DNA from: Syntrophomonadaceae bacterium | GTDB lineage: Bacteria; Bacillota; Syntrophomonadia; Syntrophomonadales; DTU052 | Direction of reading: 5' to 3' | DNA: 64,000 nucleotides | Assembly (NCBI GenBank): GCA_012729505.1 | Contig: JAAYDA010000037.1 | Coordinates: forward strand, 1-64,000 | Shown here: piece by piece, positions 5,158-14,188 of the stretch | Layout of the letters: every line of letters begins with the position of its first letter | Numbering within the stretch: position 1 is the stretch's first letter | The notes under the pieces: generated by a model | Seen by the model: the letters and a program-made list of their open reading frames with translations, nothing else | What the model was told of the DNA's origin: nothing | The model's database searches: none | Made by a program: the position numbers and the translations under genes

Positions 5158-5282
5158 ATTGTCCTTAAGCTACCAGAGGGGAGAGCTATACGTAATTACG
5201 CGACGGTCCAAGGGGAATGCTCAAGGGATTATTCGGTAGTCAGGACGGAAGCCAAGGATGAGATCAGCCTTCAGGTTTGTGT
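5158..5282. other. Intergenic block of unknown role
   Basis: A G-rich stretch including the palindrome CGTAATTACG and several GGGG/GGA runs, unlike the AT-rich flanks. It contains no open frame with a ribosome binding site. It ends at the extended -10 promoter preceding the ABC-F leader, so it lies mostly outside that transcript. It could be a remnant of a structured RNA or mobile intron; nothing diagnostic was recognised. Confidence 0.25.
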
Positions 5283-5288
5283 TATAAT
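5280..5288 (+). promoter_or_regulatory. Extended -10 promoter for the ABC-F leader
   Basis: TGTTATAAT is an extended -10 element (TGnTATAAT) about 250 bp before the ABC-F start. No good -35 box was seen, which is usual for extended -10 promoters. It would give a long leader carrying the attenuator at 5480-5521. Confidence 0.5.
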
Positions 5289-5455
5289 ACATTTGTATTT
5301 TTCAAGATTGGAGTTGGGAGGATGCGCTAGTTTTCCTGCTGATAAAAAACACGATAGAACAGGTAAATCAGTATTGCATAATGCTTGTTTTGTTGTGTCC
5401 GTGCGGGAAAGTTGATGCATCTGAAAACTCATGGCTTACGTTGATTGCTATTAAC

Positions 5456-5488
5456 ATGGTGCTTGATGTTGGTGCTGTTATGAGATGA
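5456..5488 (+). CDS. Candidate 10-residue leader peptide
   Basis: ATG to TGA encoding MVLDVGAVMR, with its stop codon inside the 5' arm of the terminator hairpin at 5480-5521. A second mini-ORF, 5431-5454 (MAYVDCY), ends just before it. Neither has a strong ribosome binding site. The overlap of a tiny ORF with an attenuator is typical of ribosome-mediated attenuation of antibiotic-resistance ABC-F genes, where stalling on the leader opens the terminator. Translation is unproven. Confidence 0.35.
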   Translation: MVLDVGAVMR

Positions 5489-5521
5489 AGGGATTAGCTT
5501 TCCTGTATCTCATATTTTTTT
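5480..5521 (+). terminator. Attenuator hairpin before ABC-F gene
   Basis: ATGAGAT (5480-5486) pairs with ATCTCAT (5507-5513), extended internally by AGG/CCT, and is followed by seven T (5515-5521). It sits only 5 bp before the gene's AGGAGG, so it looks like a regulatory terminator of this gene rather than the end of an upstream operon. Confidence 0.65.
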
Positions 5522-5540
5522 GCACAGGAGGAAAGACACC

Positions 5541-7016
5541 ATGCCACTTATAAATGTTACCAATCTTACCTTTAGTTACGATGGTGGTTTTGAAGACATC
5601 TTTGAGAATATCAGTTTTCAGATCGATACTGACTGGAAGCTTGGTTTTACCGGAAGAAATGGCCGTGGGAAAACCACCTTTTTGAATCTTTTGATGGGCA
5701 AATTCGATTATAGCGGCAGTATATCAGCCGACGTGTCCTTTGAATATTTCCCTTACGAAGTGAAGGATGAGCGGATGGATACGGCCGAAGTCATTGATAC
5801 TATTATTGACGGCTATCAGGATTGGCAGCTTATCAGAGAGCTTAATCTGCTGGAAGTGTCCAACGATGTACTTTACCGTCCGTTTTACACACTTTCTAAC
5901 GGCGAGCAGAACAAGGTGCTGCTTGCGGCTTTGTTTCTAAAGGAAAATGGATTTTTGCTGATTGACGAGCCTACCAATCATCTGGATATGAACGGTCGAA
6001 GGATTGTAAGTGAATACCTGCGGGGCAAGCGTGGGTTCATACTGGTTTCTCACGATCGGGCATTTCTGGACAATTGCATAGATCATATCCTATCCATCAA
6101 TCGAACTAATATCGAGATTCGAAAAGGGAATTTCTCTTCATGGTGGCACAATAAAGGGCTCCAGGACAATCAGGAAATCGCCAGAAATGACGCCTTAAAA
6201 AAGGATATCAATAGACTGGATAAATCCGCCCGGCGGACTTCTGATTGGTCTGACCGGGTGGAAAAATCCAAAAGCGGGCGAATTTCCGGAGTTAAGCCTG
6301 ACAAAGGCTACGTTGGGCATAAATCAGCCAAAATGATGAAGCGCTCCAAGGTGCTTGAAACCAGGTTGCATGATGCCATTGAGGAAAAATCGGCGTTGCT
6401 GAAAAACATTGAAACAGCTTCATCCTTGAAGATCCATCCTTTGAGATATCATACCAATCGAATGGCAGAACTGGAGAATATCAGCATAATTTTCGAAGAA
6501 TGTCCAATATGTGAAGGGGTCAGTTTCAGTATTGAATCAGGAGACCGGATTGCTTTGGGCGGAGGAAATGGCTCTGGCAAATCAAGTATTATCAAGCTTA
6601 TCCTGGGTGAAACCATTCCATATCAAGGGATAATAAGAAAAGGAAGCAGGCTGAAGATTTCTTATATCAGTCAGACCGTTTCTGATCTGACAGGCCACCT
6701 GACTGATTATGCCAGGGATTCAGGCATTGATCAGACGCTGTTCAAAACCATACTGCGCAAGCTGGACTTTTCAAGAGGTATGTTCGACATAGATATGAAA
6801 AATTTCAGCGATGGACAGAAGAAAAAGGTTATGCTTGCAAGAAGTCTTTGCGAATCAGCCCATCTATATATCTGGGATGAACCACTCAACTATGTTGATG
6901 TCATATCCAGGATGCAGATCGAGGAACTTATCAGATATTATGAGCCGACTCTCCTGTTTGTTGAACATGACCGCGCTTTTTGTGATAATATTGCAACAAA
7001 AAAGATATTGATATAA
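5541..7016 (+). CDS. ABC-F ribosomal protection protein, Lsa-like
   Basis: Soluble ATPase of 491 residues with two ABC domains and no membrane segments. Domain 1 has Walker A GRNGRGKTT, signature LSNGEQ and Walker B LLIDEPTNHLD. A long basic linker follows (about residues 195-300). Domain 2 has GGNGSGKSS, FSDGQK and LYIWDEPLNYVD. Such proteins bind the ribosomal E site and displace lincosamide, streptogramin A or pleuromutilin antibiotics. The ATG at 5541 is preceded by AGGAGG (5526-5531); an in-frame TTG at 5520 is excluded because it lies before the ribosome binding site. The attenuator leader suggests antibiotic-responsive expression. The exact drug spectrum is not readable. Confidence 0.85.
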   Translation: MPLINVTNLTFSYDGGFEDIFENISFQIDTDWKLGFTGRNGRGKTTFLNLLMGKFDYSGSISADVSFEYFPYEVKDERMDTAEVIDTIIDGYQDWQLIRELNLLEVSNDVLYRPFYTLSNGEQNKVLLAALFLKENGFLLIDEPTNHLDMNGRRIVSEYLRGKRGFILVSHDRAFLDNCIDHILSINRTNIEIRKGNFSSWWHNKGLQDNQEIARNDALKKDINRLDKSARRTSDWSDRVEKSKSGRISGVKPDKGYVGHKSAKMMKRSKVLETRLHDAIEEKSALLKNIETASSLKIHPLRYHTNRMAELENISIIFEECPICEGVSFSIESGDRIALGGGNGSGKSSIIKLILGETIPYQGIIRKGSRLKISYISQTVSDLTGHLTDYARDSGIDQTLFKTILRKLDFSRGMFDIDMKNFSDGQKKKVMLARSLCESAHLYIWDEPLNYVDVISRMQIEELIRYYEPTLLFVEHDRAFCDNIATKKILI

Positions 7017-8429: not shown

Positions 8430-9575
8430 ATGGCAGATCTATATGATTTAGTATTGGAGAAATTAGACACACTGGGTAAAGGATATCCACGCACTGAAAC
8501 AGGTGCCGAACGCCATTTTATCGAAAAAGTGTTCACCGATGAAGATGCGGAATTTTTCCTTAAAATGAAGATGGGCAACTATACCATCCAGGAAACTGCT
8601 GATTATATTGGTGTTTCTTACGAGGAAGCCAAAGAAAATTTAGAACGTATGGCCAAACATAACCTGCTTTTTTGGCAGTATGGCCCCTACGATACGGAGA
8701 AGCGGTATCGTTTGGTTCCTTTCATTCACGGTATTTGGGAATACAATGTAGATCGCATTGATATCAAAGACGCCAAAAACATGGGCTATTATTACATGAA
8801 CGGTATGGGCGAATCTTTGTTCGATTACCGTTTGCCCATTTCGCGCGTGGTACCCATTAGTAAAGACGCCGTGAAGGACGGCAAAATTTTGCCCATGGAC
8901 GACATGGAGGCAGTTATAAAAAAACAGTATTTGATTGTTATTACCGACTGCGCCTGTCGCAAGGTGGCCCGTTTCGGCAAGCCCTGCAATTGCGGAGAAA
9001 CCTTAAACCGCTGCATGTTCTTTGGCGACTCCGCCCGTTTCTATCTAGATCAGAACATTGGCAACACCAAGGTTATCACCACCGAAGAAGCACTGAATAT
9101 TGTTAAAGAAAATGATGAGTTAGGGCTGTACCTGATGGCCGGCCACTCCAACGAGCCCAGCGCCATGTGCTCTTGTGCAGGTTGCCATTGTGGTATTTTG
9201 ATGGCTGCCAAAATTTCGGTTCGCAGCGGATCTAAGCCCGGCAAGCAAACCTTTGACCGCTGGGGCAACTACAAATGTGTAAAAGATATGGACAAATGTA
9301 TACAGTGCGGCATTTGCATTACCCGTTGCCCCATGCGCGCTCACAAGAAGAATACGGAAGACGAGAGCAAAGTGGAATTCAATCCCGCGCTGTGCATTGG
9401 CTGCGGCCTGTGCGTAACCCGTTGTGCCCAGGACGCTCTGATTTTGGAGCGTAAACCCGACAGCGAGCTGAGTATTCCTGAAGACCGCCTGTCCTATGAC
9501 ACCTTTGACCGTATGGCAATTGAAAAAGCGGAAGTGGACGCCATGCGTGCTGCCATGGCGCAGAATGATGAGTAG
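8430..9575 (+). CDS. Cysteine-rich 4Fe-4S protein of the CODH region
   Basis: 381 residues. The first ~110 contain a stretch resembling a helix-turn-helix or winged helix (YTIQETADYIGVSYEEA). A middle segment has clustered cysteines (DCACRK, PCNCGE, CSCAGCHC). The C-terminus holds a two-cluster ferredoxin domain (CIQCGICITRCP, CIGCGLCVTRCA). The protein is probably cytoplasmic and redox active. Its stop lies 2 nt before hypA, so it is presumably translated with the nickel-insertion genes. A role in electron delivery or metal-cluster maturation of CO dehydrogenase is inferred from position only; the middle cysteine module was not assigned to a named family. Confidence 0.75.
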   Translation: MADLYDLVLEKLDTLGKGYPRTETGAERHFIEKVFTDEDAEFFLKMKMGNYTIQETADYIGVSYEEAKENLERMAKHNLLFWQYGPYDTEKRYRLVPFIHGIWEYNVDRIDIKDAKNMGYYYMNGMGESLFDYRLPISRVVPISKDAVKDGKILPMDDMEAVIKKQYLIVITDCACRKVARFGKPCNCGETLNRCMFFGDSARFYLDQNIGNTKVITTEEALNIVKENDELGLYLMAGHSNEPSAMCSCAGCHCGILMAAKISVRSGSKPGKQTFDRWGNYKCVKDMDKCIQCGICITRCPMRAHKKNTEDESKVEFNPALCIGCGLCVTRCAQDALILERKPDSELSIPEDRLSYDTFDRMAIEKAEVDAMRAAMAQNDE

Positions 9576-9577
9576 TT

Positions 9578-9937
9578 ATGCATGAACTCCCGTTCACTAA
9601 AAACATTTTGTCGATTGCATTAAAATTTGCCGAGAAAAACAAGGCAAAAAAGGTTAAGGCTATTTATTTGCGCATTGGTGTGCTGCGCGATATGCAAGAG
9701 GACTGGCTTCGCCGTTACTTTGCCTATATCAGCAAGGATACCATTGCCGAAGAAGCCAGGTTGTATGTGATGCCGGAACCTTTAATTTTGGTGTGCAACA
9801 ACTGCGGGGAACAGTTTGGGATTGATTTGCAAGAATTTGTAGACGCTGACGAAATTGCATGTCCCGCCTGCAAGCAAAGTGATTACTACATGGAGTCCGG
9901 AACGGAGTTCATCATTCAAAGCATCGAGATTGAGTGA
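9578..9937 (+). CDS. hypA: HypA-like nickel metallochaperone
   Basis: 119 residues, the usual HypA length. It begins MHE, the N-terminal Met-His-Glu that binds Ni(II) in HypA. Two CxxC pairs (CNNCGEQ and CPACKQS) form the structural zinc site. In hydrogenase systems HypA passes nickel with HypB to the large subunit. No hydrogenase gene is in this window, whereas CooC and CooS follow, so delivery to the nickel site of CO dehydrogenase is the more economical guess. It lies 2 nt after the preceding gene and 67 nt before hypB. Confidence 0.85.
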   Translation: MHELPFTKNILSIALKFAEKNKAKKVKAIYLRIGVLRDMQEDWLRRYFAYISKDTIAEEARLYVMPEPLILVCNNCGEQFGIDLQEFVDADEIACPACKQSDYYMESGTEFIIQSIEIE

Positions 9938-10004
9938 CAAATTGGTTGCGGGCCCTTGGGACTGCGACCTAAGCACTAAAATTAAAATATGGGAGATACC
10001 GACA

Positions 10005-10673
10005 ATGAAAGATATTCATTTGATTGATATCCGTCAGGCTATTTTGTCCGACAACGACAATGAGGCCGATAAAATTCGTGCCGGGCTGAAGGAACACAAA
10101 ACTTTTATGCTTAATTTGATGGCATCGCCCGGTGCCGGAAAAACCAGCCTGGTCATGGCCATCATCAAGGCCCTGTCACCCTGTTTCAAAATCGGTGTCA
10201 TTGAAGGTGACATCGACTCGATTGTTGATGCAGAAAAGGTGAGCGAACAGGGTGTGCCGGTTGTGCAATTGCGTACCGGCGGCGCTTGCCATTTGGATGC
10301 GCCAATGATTGCCGCTTCTTTGGAGAAGCTGAACTGGAAAGAATTAGATTTGGTTATCATTGAGAACATTGGTAATTTGGTGTGCCCTGCCGAGTTTGAC
10401 ACCGGCGCCAATGTGCGTGTGATGATGACAAGTGTGCCCGAGGGCGACGACAAGGTGCTGAAGTACCCGCTGATGTTTTCAGTGTGCGAAGCTCTAGTCA
10501 TCAACAAAATCGATTACCTTCCCGACCCGGGCTTCGATATTGAAACCTTAAAAAAGAGGGTACGCAACCTGAACAAGGCCATTGAGATGTTCCCGCTCTC
10601 TTGCCGAAAAGGCGAAGGAGTGCAGGTGTTCACCGATTGGTTGGCCGTGCAAATTGAGGAAGTAAAAGCTTGA
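10005..10673 (+). CDS. hypB: HypB-like GTPase for nickel insertion
   Basis: 222-residue SIMIBI-class GTPase. Walker A is SPGAGKTS near residue 42, followed by EGDIDS, the family segment ENIGNLVCP and the guanine-specificity NKIDY. The poly-histidine and N-terminal CxxCGC nickel motifs of some HypB proteins are absent, so it is a minimal GTPase form. The ATG at 10005 has GGGAGA about 8 nt upstream; an in-frame earlier start inside hypA would add an unrelated extension. Probably works with HypA to load nickel into CooS. Confidence 0.85.
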   Translation: MKDIHLIDIRQAILSDNDNEADKIRAGLKEHKTFMLNLMASPGAGKTSLVMAIIKALSPCFKIGVIEGDIDSIVDAEKVSEQGVPVVQLRTGGACHLDAPMIAASLEKLNWKELDLVIIENIGNLVCPAEFDTGANVRVMMTSVPEGDDKVLKYPLMFSVCEALVINKIDYLPDPGFDIETLKKRVRNLNKAIEMFPLSCRKGEGVQVFTDWLAVQIEEVKA

Positions 10674-10701
10674 GTAAAAATTGCTATTGGAGGGTTTCTT
10701 T

Positions 10702-10857
10702 ATGCTAACCAAAGTAAGCTTACACCATGGGTCTGTTATTTATCCCGAAACAGTAAAAAGGGGTGATGAAAACGGGTTAAAAGATTTGATTACTTCCGAG
10801 GGGATTAAAGAGGCTGAAGAGCCTGAAACAGCAGAGAATTGTGATCTTTTAAAATAA
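10702..10857 (+). CDS. Small 51-residue protein, unrecognised
   Basis: ATG to TAA with a good GGAGGG 8 nt upstream, lying 28 bp after hypB. The product is acidic toward its C-terminus (repeated Glu), has one cysteine near the end and a His-His pair at positions 8-9. No family recognised. Position between nickel-insertion genes and cooC suggests an accessory role; the spacing and ribosome binding site argue that it is translated. Confidence 0.55.
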   Translation: MLTKVSLHHGSVIYPETVKRGDENGLKDLITSEGIKEAEEPETAENCDLLK

Positions 10858-10901
10858 TCTAAAATTGTGTGCAAGCAATTGTTCAACCAATATATTTATA
10901 T

Positions 10902-10913
10902 CTGCTGTATAAT
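10902..10913 (+). promoter_or_regulatory. Possible -10 region before cooC
   Basis: CTGCTGTATAAT contains a perfect TATAAT (10908-10913), 33 bp before the cooC start, in an AT-rich gap. No matching -35 at 16-18 bp was found, so support is limited. Confidence 0.35.
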
Positions 10914-10946
10914 TAAATTAGTAAAACTCAGAAAAGGATCTTGGGT

Positions 10947-11723
10947 ATGAAAATCGCTGTCTCGGGAAAAGGTGGTGTGGGCAAATCAACTATCGCGGGT
11001 GTGCTGGCTTTGATGCTGGCTGAAGAAGGGATCAGGGTAATTGCGCTGGATGCTGATCCGGATGCCAATCTGGCCTACGCCTTGGGTATACCCCAGGCAC
11101 GGCAAAAAGAGATTGTTTCCATCGCCCACAGAATCGATCTCATAGAAGAGCGCATCGGTGCTAAACTCGGCAGATATGGACAGATATTTAAGCTCAATCC
11201 TGAGGTTTCCGATCTGCCCAATCGTTTTGCATTCGAGCATCGCGGCGTATCCCTGCTGGTGTTGGGTGCCGCTCAAAAAGGCGGAAGTGGTTGCGCATGT
11301 CCGGAAAACACCTTCATCCAAGCCTTTGTTAACGATCTGGTTTTGCATAGGAATGAAACCCTTATCATGGACATGGAAGCGGGTATCGAACATCTGGGAC
11401 GAGCTACTGCCCAAGGTGTTGATTTGATGTTGGTAGTGGTGGAGCCGGGGCAGCGCTCCATAGAATGTGCATATCAGGTGAAGAGAATGTGCGGGGAACT
11501 GGGCCTGACCAACCTGCTTTACATAGGTAATAAGATTACCGGCGATGCCGATAAAGAATTTATTCAAGCCGCCCTTCCTGGGCAGGAACTGATCGCCTTC
11601 CTGCCCTACCGCTACAGTATTCGTTCCGCGGATCGCGACGGAGTCTGTGTCTATGATTGCCTTGACCCGGAGGCCCTCCGGTGCTACCGGAAGATCACTG
11701 AACGGATTATTCCCACGGCTTAG
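10947..11723 (+). CDS. cooC: CO dehydrogenase maturation ATPase CooC
   Basis: 258-residue MinD/ParA-like P-loop ATPase with deviant Walker A GKGGVGKST at residues 8-16. The CooC hallmark is the CACPENTF segment, where the cysteine pair binds Ni or Zn at the dimer interface. ALDADPDANLA and MDMEAGIEHLGRA match the switch regions. It promotes ATP-dependent nickel insertion into the C-cluster of CooS. The ATG at 10947 follows AAAGGAT with good spacing; the upstream in-frame TTG at 10941 is too close to it. Followed by an intrinsic terminator, then cooF and cooS. Confidence 0.92.
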   Translation: MKIAVSGKGGVGKSTIAGVLALMLAEEGIRVIALDADPDANLAYALGIPQARQKEIVSIAHRIDLIEERIGAKLGRYGQIFKLNPEVSDLPNRFAFEHRGVSLLVLGAAQKGGSGCACPENTFIQAFVNDLVLHRNETLIMDMEAGIEHLGRATAQGVDLMLVVVEPGQRSIECAYQVKRMCGELGLTNLLYIGNKITGDADKEFIQAALPGQELIAFLPYRYSIRSADRDGVCVYDCLDPEALRCYRKITERIIPTA

Positions 11724-11743
11724 TTTCGGCTAAGCCTTTTTTT
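11717..11743 (+). terminator. Intrinsic terminator of cooC
   Basis: GGCTTAG (11717-11723) pairs with CTAAGCC (11730-11736), loop TTTCGG, followed by seven T. The cooC stop codon TAG is part of the stem. It separates the maturation genes from cooF-cooS, so the catalytic genes may depend on read-through or their own promoter. Confidence 0.85.
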
Positions 11744-11781
11744 ATTTTCGTTGATAATTATTCAGAGGGGAGTGAAGAGGA

Positions 11782-12285
11782 ATGAAACGGGTTTTGGTTC
11801 GTTTGGAGAGATGTCTCGGATGTCATACCTGCGAATTGGCCTGCGCCGTCGCCCACAGCAAGGCAGGGACCTTGCCGGGCGCAGTATTGGGTGGTGAGAG
11901 ACCGCCCATTTACATCAAGGTGGAGCAAGGCGGCAATTTGCGTTTCCCGGCTCAATGCCGCCATTGCACCGATGCGGCTTGCATCCATGCCTGCATGAGC
12001 GGTGCCCTTCATCGTAATGAAGAAAGTGGCGTGGTCCTTTGCGACCAAAACAAATGTGTCGGCTGCTGGATGTGTGTGATGACCTGTCCTTTTGGTGCGA
12101 TCAGCGAGAGCCTCACTCATAAGGCTGCCAAATGTGATCTATGCTACGATATTGGCGATCCCCGCTGTGCGGCGGCCTGTCCTACAGGAGCCCTCAGCTA
12201 CGAAGAAGTGGGCTCCTATGATCAAACCAGGAGGAAAGAATTTATCGTGAACTATCTTATAAGTGAAATGAAGGGGGCGATGTAA
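11782..12285 (+). CDS. cooF: CooF-like ferredoxin subunit
   Basis: 167-residue polyferredoxin of the CooF/HycB/DmsB type with four cysteine clusters (CLGCHTCELAC, CRHCTDAAC, CVGCWMCVMTC, CDLCYDIGDPRC). It accepts electrons from the D-cluster of CooS and passes them on, here most likely to the FAD/NAD oxidoreductase encoded after cooS. The ATG follows GAGGGGAGTGAAGAGG; its stop is 1 nt before the cooS start. Cytoplasmic, with no signal peptide. Confidence 0.88.
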   Translation: MKRVLVRLERCLGCHTCELACAVAHSKAGTLPGAVLGGERPPIYIKVEQGGNLRFPAQCRHCTDAACIHACMSGALHRNEESGVVLCDQNKCVGCWMCVMTCPFGAISESLTHKAAKCDLCYDIGDPRCAAACPTGALSYEEVGSYDQTRRKEFIVNYLISEMKGAM

Positions 12286-12286
12286 G

Positions 12287-14188
12287 ATGAATAACCGCGA
12301 GAAATCTATAGACCCGGCCTCATTAAAAATGATTGCCAAAGCCTATTCGGAAAATGTCGAGATATGCTGGGATCGTTATGAGGCGCAGCAACCTCAATGC
12401 GGTTTTGGCGAGTTGGGAACCTGCTGCCGCAACTGTCTGCAAGGGCCCTGTCGGATCAATCCCTTCGGTGAGCCCAAAACTGGTATTTGCGGTGCCAGCG
12501 CAGATACCATCGTAGCCCGCAATCTATTGCGCAGCGTAACCGGAGGCGCGGCCACCCACGTTGATCATGCCTTTGAGGCTGTTGAAATCTTGCAAATGGC
12601 GGCCGAAGGCAGTGTCCCTTATGATATCAAGGATGAAGTAAAGCTCTATGCGATAGCCGCCCAACTGGGTATTGACGGAGACGGAAAGGACAAATATGCC
12701 CTGGCTAAAGAATTGACGCAAGTTATTTTTGCCGATTTTGGACCGAGCGGCGGGGAAACCATGAAATATTTGCTGGCTATGGCTCCGGCCGAGCGGGTCG
12801 AAGCTTGGCGCAGCCTGGGAATCCTCCCTAAAAGTCCGGATCAGGAAATTCGCCGCTCTCTGCATGAATCGACTATGGGTGTGGATGCTGATCCGGTAAA
12901 CTTACTGTTGAACACTGCTAAGATGGGACTGGTGGATTGCTATTCCGGCCTCAAACTGGGTACCGATATACAGGATATCGTCTTCGGCACTCCCGCGCCG
13001 GTTAAATCTGAAGCTAATCTGGGCGTGCTGGAACGGGATAAGGTCAATATTGTAGTTCATGGACATGTACCCTTTCTTTCGGAGAAAATCGTTGAGTGGG
13101 CGCGCAGGCTGGAGCCGGAGGCAATTGCAGCCGGCGCTGCCGGTATACAGCTGGCCGGTCTCTGCTGTACCGGCAATGAAGTGCTGATGCGCCAGGGCGT
13201 AGCCCCGGCCGGTAATTACCTCTCCCAGGAATTAGCCTTGATTTCCGGGGCGACCGATCTGATAGTGGTCGATGTCCAATGCATCATGCCCTCCCTGCCC
13301 CAGGTGGCTTCCTGCTACCATACCAGGGTAGTCACTACCCATGCCATCGGTAAAATCCCGGGTGCGGAACATATACCTTTTGAGCCGGAAACGGCAGATG
13401 AAGATGCGGCCCGCATTGTGCGTATGGGGATAGAAGCCTTTGCCCGGCGCGATAAGGCTAAAATCGACATCCCCAGTGATAAGAGCGAGATCTGGGGCGG
13501 TTTCAGTGTGGAAGCTATTGTAGGGGCTCTGGCAACTCTGGATGCCGACAATCCCCTCAAGCCCTTGGTTGATAATATCGCAGCCGGGAATATCTTGGGC
13601 GCGGTAGGTATAGTAGGCTGCAATAACACCCGCTTCACTCAGGATAAAGTAATTGTGGGCTTGGCAAAAGAGTTGCTCCGGCAAAATGTGCTGCTGGTTG
13701 TCACCGGCTGTGCGGCTCATGCTCTGGGCAAGGCCGGATTGATGAATCCCGATGGCGCCAAAAAATATGCGGGACACGGCCTTTCGGCAGTGCTGACCGC
13801 CGTAGGCGAGGCCGCTGGTTTGGGCGGACCGCTGCCTCCGGTATTGCATATGGGCAGTTGTGTTGATAATGCCCGCATCGGCGATTTGCTGGCGGCCTTG
13901 GCCGATTATCTTGGCGTGGCGATTAAAGACTTGCCGGCGGCGGCGTCGGCGCCCGAATTGAATCATGAAAAGGCCCTGTCTATCGGCACCTGGGCTGTGG
14001 ATTTGGGTTTGCTCACTCATATTGGCATGGCGCCCAACGTGCTGGGCAGCCCGCTTGTGACCAAGGTGCTCACTGAGGATCTCGAATCGCTGGTCGGCGG
14101 AAAATTCTACGTCGAGCCCGATCCGGTCCAGGCGGCGGAGGTCATAGTATCCCATATCAAAGCGAAACGGGCCGCTTTGGGGATATAG
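12287..14188 (+). CDS. cooS: Ni-carbon monoxide dehydrogenase catalytic subunit
   Basis: 633 residues, the normal length for monofunctional CooS. It oxidises CO with water to CO2, two electrons and two protons. D-cluster cysteines Cys38 and Cys46 and B-cluster cysteines Cys47, Cys50, Cys55 and Cys68 are all present. The six C-cluster ligands can be placed: His in VVHGHVPF and cysteines in CCTGNE, DVQCIMP, GCNNTR, TGCAAH and GSCVDN. No acetyl-CoA synthase gene is in the window. With cooF upstream and an FAD/NAD oxidoreductase downstream, electrons probably go to NAD(P)+ or a related carrier rather than to an energy-converting hydrogenase. Start supported by AAGGGGG 9 nt upstream. Confidence 0.96.
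   Translation: MNNREKSIDPASLKMIAKAYSENVEICWDRYEAQQPQCGFGELGTCCRNCLQGPCRINPFGEPKTGICGASADTIVARNLLRSVTGGAATHVDHAFEAVEILQMAAEGSVPYDIKDEVKLYAIAAQLGIDGDGKDKYALAKELTQVIFADFGPSGGETMKYLLAMAPAERVEAWRSLGILPKSPDQEIRRSLHESTMGVDADPVNLLLNTAKMGLVDCYSGLKLGTDIQDIVFGTPAPVKSEANLGVLERDKVNIVVHGHVPFLSEKIVEWARRLEPEAIAAGAAGIQLAGLCCTGNEVLMRQGVAPAGNYLSQELALISGATDLIVVDVQCIMPSLPQVASCYHTRVVTTHAIGKIPGAEHIPFEPETADEDAARIVRMGIEAFARRDKAKIDIPSDKSEIWGGFSVEAIVGALATLDADNPLKPLVDNIAAGNILGAVGIVGCNNTRFTQDKVIVGLAKELLRQNVLLVVTGCAAHALGKAGLMNPDGAKKYAGHGLSAVLTAVGEAAGLGGPLPPVLHMGSCVDNARIGDLLAALADYLGVAIKDLPAAASAPELNHEKALSIGTWAVDLGLLTHIGMAPNVLGSPLVTKVLTEDLESLVGGKFYVEPDPVQAAEVIVSHIKAKRAALGI

Follow-up and report, generated by a model that had tools for sequence, protein, structure and literature searches.

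The closest described counterparts of the leader studied here precede ABC-F genes and sense drugs through very short upstream open reading frames (uORFs). In the vmlR and cplR leaders, retapamulin and lincomycin arrest the ribosome at the uORF start codon, and the arrest is read out by antiterminator switching (PMC9226507, PMC10201436). The B. subtilis vmlR leader (ARE2 subfamily) holds a three-codon uORF, MIN, within an anti-antiterminator, has a competing antiterminator and terminator, and combines transcription with translation attenuation; with a 30S ribosome bound to this uORF, the toeprint falls 16 nt past the A of its AUG (PMC9226507). The C. difficile cplR leader (ARE1) carries the uORF MR[I/M] and a terminator tied to the Shine-Dalgarno (SD) sequence of the gene (PMC10201436). 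In the Streptomyces are5sc leader, lincosamides, streptogramin A and pleuromutilins stall the ribosome at the start codon of the three-residue uORF MLV, in combination with an alternative terminator and antiterminator (PMC12421871).

We analysed a stretch of 64,000 nucleotides from a Syntrophomonadaceae bacterium (the window; all features given below lie on its forward strand). Its leader at 5295-5540 is very probably a ribosome-operated transcription attenuator of an Lsa-type ABC-F gene, freed by drug arrest at a start codon. The organization is that of vmlR, with a minute uORF inside an anti-antiterminator, and the uORF, the terminator tied to the SD sequence and the predicted inducers recall cplR; the ultra-short uORF and the alternative folds are also found in are5sc. 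The genes belong to different ABC-F subfamilies, however, and are5sc, an actinobacterial ARE5 gene, differs in leader sequence and uORF as well. The cplR terminator stem itself masks the SD sequence, unlike the one described here. Where vmlR has MIN, the window has Met-Arg-stop (MR*) and many of its relatives a bare AUG-stop, and our model of the leader matched, in a survey of the phylum, only before Lsa-type genes or their remnants. The uORF predicted for LsaA, MAGN (PMC10201436), differs from those found in the present leaders. Systems of this kind are known; in our best reading, the leader itself represents a new RNA family whose sensor ORF is exceptionally small.

The gene (5541-7016) encodes a protein of 491 aa, a predicted Lsa-type ribosomal protection protein according to NCBIfam models, structure and identity comparisons. 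It scores 462.5 bits with the NCBIfam model ribo_prot_ABC_F (cut-off 380), and its best family by far is ABCF_Lsa_all, with 733.9 bits just under the cut-off of 750; we therefore call this Lsa-like sequence Lsa-type rather than Lsa. The best solved relative is Lsa(A) (7nhk), and the plasmid-encoded Lsa(E) is 61.8% identical. The protein has two ABC domains with Walker A, signature and catalytic DEP motifs (GRNGRGKTT at 38, LSNGE at 118, DEPTN at 142, FSDGQ at 422 and DEPLN at 446, and, by inspection of the translation, GGGNGSGKSS in the second domain). The gene has its own SD sequence (AGGAGG, 5526-5531), and its start pairs with the anti-SD at -10.3 kcal/mol. We found no Cfr in the genome of the window: the sole match, presumably RlmN, has 270 bits where the cut-off is 550. 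Further downstream, at 8430-14188, the translations show a cluster of ferredoxin-like, HypA/HypB-like and CO-dehydrogenase-like (CooC/CooF/CooS-type) ORFs.

An earlier note on this DNA had proposed that an extended -10 promoter, two mini-ORFs and a terminator make up an antibiotic-inducible attenuator. The promoter element, TGTTATAAT, is present at 5280-5288 and predicts a transcription start near 5295; of 71 leaders checked, 54 have a -10-like hexamer in the 45 nt before the uORF SD, and in 35 of these it comes with TGn. The note had overlooked the elements that appear to operate the switch, namely a uORF with its own SD region and an antiterminator. The SD region, GGAGTTGGGAGG, spans 5310-5321, forms an anti-SD duplex of -10.4 kcal/mol and is conserved across an alignment of 66 leaders (A1); it is followed by the putative sensor uORF AUG CGC UAG (5322-5330), whose AUG is present within 8 columns in 66/66 leaders. 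The same MR* uORF, ending in UAA, occurs in L090 and L091, the two intact relatives closest to the window. Segment 1, TTTTCCTGC (5331-5339), is the 5' strand of the anti-antiterminator and ends at position 18 counted from the A of the AUG. In the fold of the window it is followed by a 17-bp apical hairpin (5349-5398; 5349-5365 with 5382-5398, corresponding to P2/P3 of the alignment) and by segment 2, GCGGGAAAGUUG (5403-5414). The 3' strand of an outer helix (5416-5430) closes over the SD and AUG of the uORF, pairing 5416-5422 with 5320-5326 and 5426-5430 with 5311-5315; the equivalent helix of the relatives, SD:CTTTTC..CTC, is 90-94% paired.

Between the promoter and the ABC-F gene lies an intrinsic terminator (5479-5521), with a stem-loop at 5479-5514 (5479-5487/5506-5514 and 5489-5493/5500-5504) and a U-tract at 5515-5521. 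A promoter and terminator scan had missed both the extended -10, which is without a -35, and this terminator, which has an internal mismatch. The 227-nt leader (5295-5521) folds at -71.3 kcal/mol against -52.2 ± 4.0 kcal/mol for shuffled sequences (z = -4.7; 0/200 shuffles as good), which, with the terminator at its end and the Lsa-type gene behind it, bears out the proposed attenuator. The switch has four parts. Pairing of the uORF region with GCGGGAAAG makes the anti-antiterminator, which the short SD-led uORF overlaps; pairing of GCGGGAAAG with the 3' arm of the terminator makes the antiterminator, which excludes both the former helix and the terminator. Segment 2 thus pairs with 5328-5339 in the off state, and in the on state 5401-5416 pairs with 5493-5508, which is the anti-terminator fold that the earlier note had said to look for. 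The switch segments of the window (UUUUCCUGC, GCGGGAAAG and CUUUCCUGU) retain pairing in both alternatives.

Protein searches yielded 80 loci from other genomes and seven from the same order, and a recognisable copy of the leader was found in 74 of the 80. The elements of A1 follow one order. The uORF SD and the AUG come first, then segment 1 (consensus UUUCUUGC) and a first hairpin; after these come segment 2 (GCAAGAAAGUUAC) and a strand that folds back onto the uORF SD. A second hairpin precedes the terminator, in which the loop and the 3' arm (GUAACUUUCUUGC) are complementary to segment 2. The off-state helices (anti-antiterminator, terminator and side helices; 55 pairs) are 89.7% paired in the 66 leaders, compared to a maximum of 53.1% when the partners are slid, a control that retains relatedness. 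Shuffled controls ignore relatedness, and the following comparisons are supportive rather than exact probabilities: 33 off-state pairs changed on both sides (21.7 ± 2.6 shuffled), with 129 double-change cells (48.9 ± 5.6); and 7 pairs of the antiterminator, which is 96.1% paired, changed on both sides (1.2 ± 1.0), with 12 double-change cells (1.3 ± 1.1). Complementarity of segment 2 to two different strands, as read from these sequences, is the signature of a switch. Run on the whole alignment, RNAalifold recovers no more than P1 and the terminator, probably because the alternative pairings compete.

The same alignment bears on the possibility that the leader mainly controls translation of the ABC-F gene, with helix P5 masking its SD and termination being secondary. 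A CTGTAT:ATACAG-like helix beside this SD is 81% paired, with 5/6 pairs changed on both sides, and control is combined in cplR and vmlR (PMC10201436, PMC9226507). However, no element is better conserved than the terminator helix (99.5% paired across the 66 leaders, with 7/9 pairs changed on both sides), which the U-tract follows, and P5 is weak in the window. We consider a mainly translational role unlikely.

Transcription attenuation by a ribosome held at the uORF start codon was modelled in silico. Leaders ending in the U-tract were folded either freely or with nucleotides -14 to +16 around the uORF AUG blocked. Free folds gave the terminator in 66/66 leaders and the antiterminator in none (0/66); blocking the start-codon footprint produced the antiterminator in 49/66, that is, in the window and 48 other leaders. 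This simple procedure failed to flip the remaining 17/66, among them L090 and L091, which are close relatives, and kinetics or other contacts must therefore matter there. When the block was slid along the window and six relatives, the antiterminator appeared solely with blocks close to segment 1, and for L082 and L091, two of the six relatives, it never appeared. The distance from the A of the AUG (position 1) to the last base of segment 1 is 15-21 in 78/78 classified leaders (29 at 16 and 29 at 18), and 15-19 in a second sample. This spacing is held although the uORF varies from 1 to 8 codons. Its match to the +16 toeprint on vmlR suggests a ribosome held at the start codon and not at a particular later codon.

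We propose that in the absence of drug ribosomes would initiate at the AUG at 5322, complete the two-codon uORF and depart. The uORF strand would then pair with segment 2 and keep it from the terminator, and RNA polymerase would halt at 5515-5521. A drug that blocks the first peptide bond would freeze the ribosome on the AUG; by analogy with vmlR and cplR, pleuromutilins, lincosamides and streptogramin A are the expected signals. The footprint of the frozen ribosome would cover segment 1, and the released segment 2 would pair with the 3' arm of the terminator, letting transcription proceed into the gene.

The uORFs themselves are of three sizes. A bare AUG-stop is found in 38 of the 78 leaders (20 UAA, 11 UGA and 7 UAG), six have two or three codons (MR*, MK*, ME* and MRK*), and 34 have five to eight codons, mostly MxxFSC* or MxxLSC*. 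These last motifs, conserved in many clostridial and negativicute leaders, would suit a sensor that arrests during elongation of a specific peptide, in the manner of macrolide leaders. Yet their codons overlap segment 1, so that RNA pairing alone can explain the conservation, and a uORF encoding Met only, or Met-Arg as in the window, leaves no room for a peptide motif. Peptide-specific arrest is improbable, and start-codon arrest remains our preferred reading. In a quick ABC-F tree the bare AUG-stops gather in a single region rich in Paenibacillaceae, where some have been lost; uORFs of two and three codons require at least four changes, and one stop has been exchanged for another at least 11 times. 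Bases two and three of the stop codon (helix P1b) also pair with UU of segment 2, and this pairing may help to keep purines there. The use of all three stops, their repeated exchange and the rarity of sense codons speak for selection of the bare AUG-stop; the exceptions UGG, UAC and GAU speak against it. AUG-stop elements would escape uORF4u, whose stated default sets a minimum ORF length of nine nucleotides (PMC10219788).

A ligand-binding riboswitch or a protein-binding attenuator, with the uORF incidental, would account for a long, conserved and structured leader with the extra helices P2-P5. It would leave unexplained why the AUG, the SD and the distance to segment 1 stay constant while the uORF varies in length and sequence, and the genes downstream, encoding ribosome-protecting ABC-F proteins and the 23S rRNA-methylating Cfr, are those that a signal read by the ribosome predicts. 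We regard this explanation as very improbable.

Ribosome-mediated attenuation, as the earlier note had it, has strong comparative support in the exclusive helices with compensatory changes, the conserved SD and AUG and the Lsa-type gene downstream; the part that fails is its operation through the mini-ORFs MAYVDCY (5431-5454, ATG..TAA) and MVLDVGAVMR (5456-5488, ATG..TGA). Both exist, and the UGA of the second does lie within the 5' arm of the terminator, but that stalling on either of them directly disrupts the terminator is scarcely credible, and we rejected both as sensors: they are without SD (-1.9 and -1.3 kcal/mol, compared to -10.4 for the AUG at 5322), only 7/66 and 10/66 aligned leaders have an ATG at about the same position, and their frames are absent from L090 and L091.

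At gathering score, Rfam 15 gave no match to the ~240-nt leader in the window or in 20 related loci; the sole match in the latter was an unrelated T-box outside the leader. A T-box leader (RF00230) lies downstream of the ABC-F gene in Clostridium chromiireducens (L048:3589-3887). A search of the accessible literature, which took in a minority of subscription papers and not the original Term-seq paper, returned no description of the leader, of its presence before cfr genes as well, or of a bacterial sensor consisting of AUG-stop.

The leader is found across Bacillota. Model R1 of the leader, run over 399 genomes of this phylum without regard to genes, found 22 matches besides that of the window. 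Twenty precede an Lsa-type ABC-F gene, and the other two (L106:1501-1749, 179 bits; L109:1501-1737, 172 bits) are intact leaders before a decayed N-terminus, where matches are limited to the first 15 and the first 49 residues, respectively. A weak match from the order-level search (L100, E 8e-4) was without ABC-F and was discarded. In one family the leader was found in 187/300 genomes, some with two or three copies. It also precedes plasmid-borne lsa(E) (L123, pJEG050; 95.9 bits, E 4.5e-18), where the RNA family and the segments are those of the window; the uORF is longer (MYNFSC*), and a second small ORF lies between the terminator and lsa(E). The ABC-F genes lsa(B) and those of Priestia, Enterococcus gilvus and a Latilactobacillus plasmid had no significant match to the leader.

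Among 20 further loci, five carry the leader before a Cfr-family 23S rRNA methyltransferase gene (L184, L185, L188, L189 and L195; 611-625 bits, cut-off 550), and in three more (L183, L187 and L192) it precedes a gene that looks cfr-like, by sequence only. Scraps of ABC-F remain between leader and cfr in L187, L188 and L192, and ABC-F and cfr-like genes stand in succession in L177, L182, L190 and L191. Most simply, an ancestral operon would have had the order leader-ABC-F-cfr, and deletion would have removed the ABC-F gene at some loci.

It is an even question, in our view, whether this one undescribed RNA family is a general sensor of initiation-arresting drugs (pleuromutilins, lincosamides and streptogramin A), governing across Bacillota two resistance mechanisms that are unrelated, Lsa-type ABC-F proteins and 23S rRNA methylation of the Cfr type, and moving with lsa(E) on plasmids, with a sensor ORF shrunk in Paenibacillaceae-like lineages to AUG-stop that would read arrest of the initiation complex, or blocked fMet release, without any peptide bond. 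Lsa-type genes of a large clade, together with lsa(E), which is mobile in the clinic and has the same leader, are likely to be drug-inducible, and resistance may stay silent before exposure. With bare AUG-stop uORFs, arrest at the start codon would be separable from effects of peptide sequence, a distinction unsettled for vmlR and cplR.

Further elements were observed around these leaders. In lsa(E)-like and Clostridium loci (L123 near 1381-1450, L112, L048, L061, L085 and L087), the stretch from the terminator to ABC-F holds a small M(I)DN(K)DT...-like ORF and a hairpin with complementarity to the SD region; lsa(B) (L197) and the Priestia locus (L196) seem to carry only this element. An orphan copy of the leader (L194:158-389, 155.6 bits) is followed by neither ABC-F nor cfr, and the first long ORF downstream looks nonribosomal peptide synthetase-like. 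Upstream of the cfr-like gene in L177, L179, L182-L185, L187-L193 and L195 is a second conserved leader peptide of 36-42 aa (e.g. MFEVVDVHVNRSLSVGTVHDQTKRMPEHYPSIDRCT-like), and beside it GCCGGAG/CTCCGGC-type complementarity near the cfr SD; this region looks like a separate translational attenuator.
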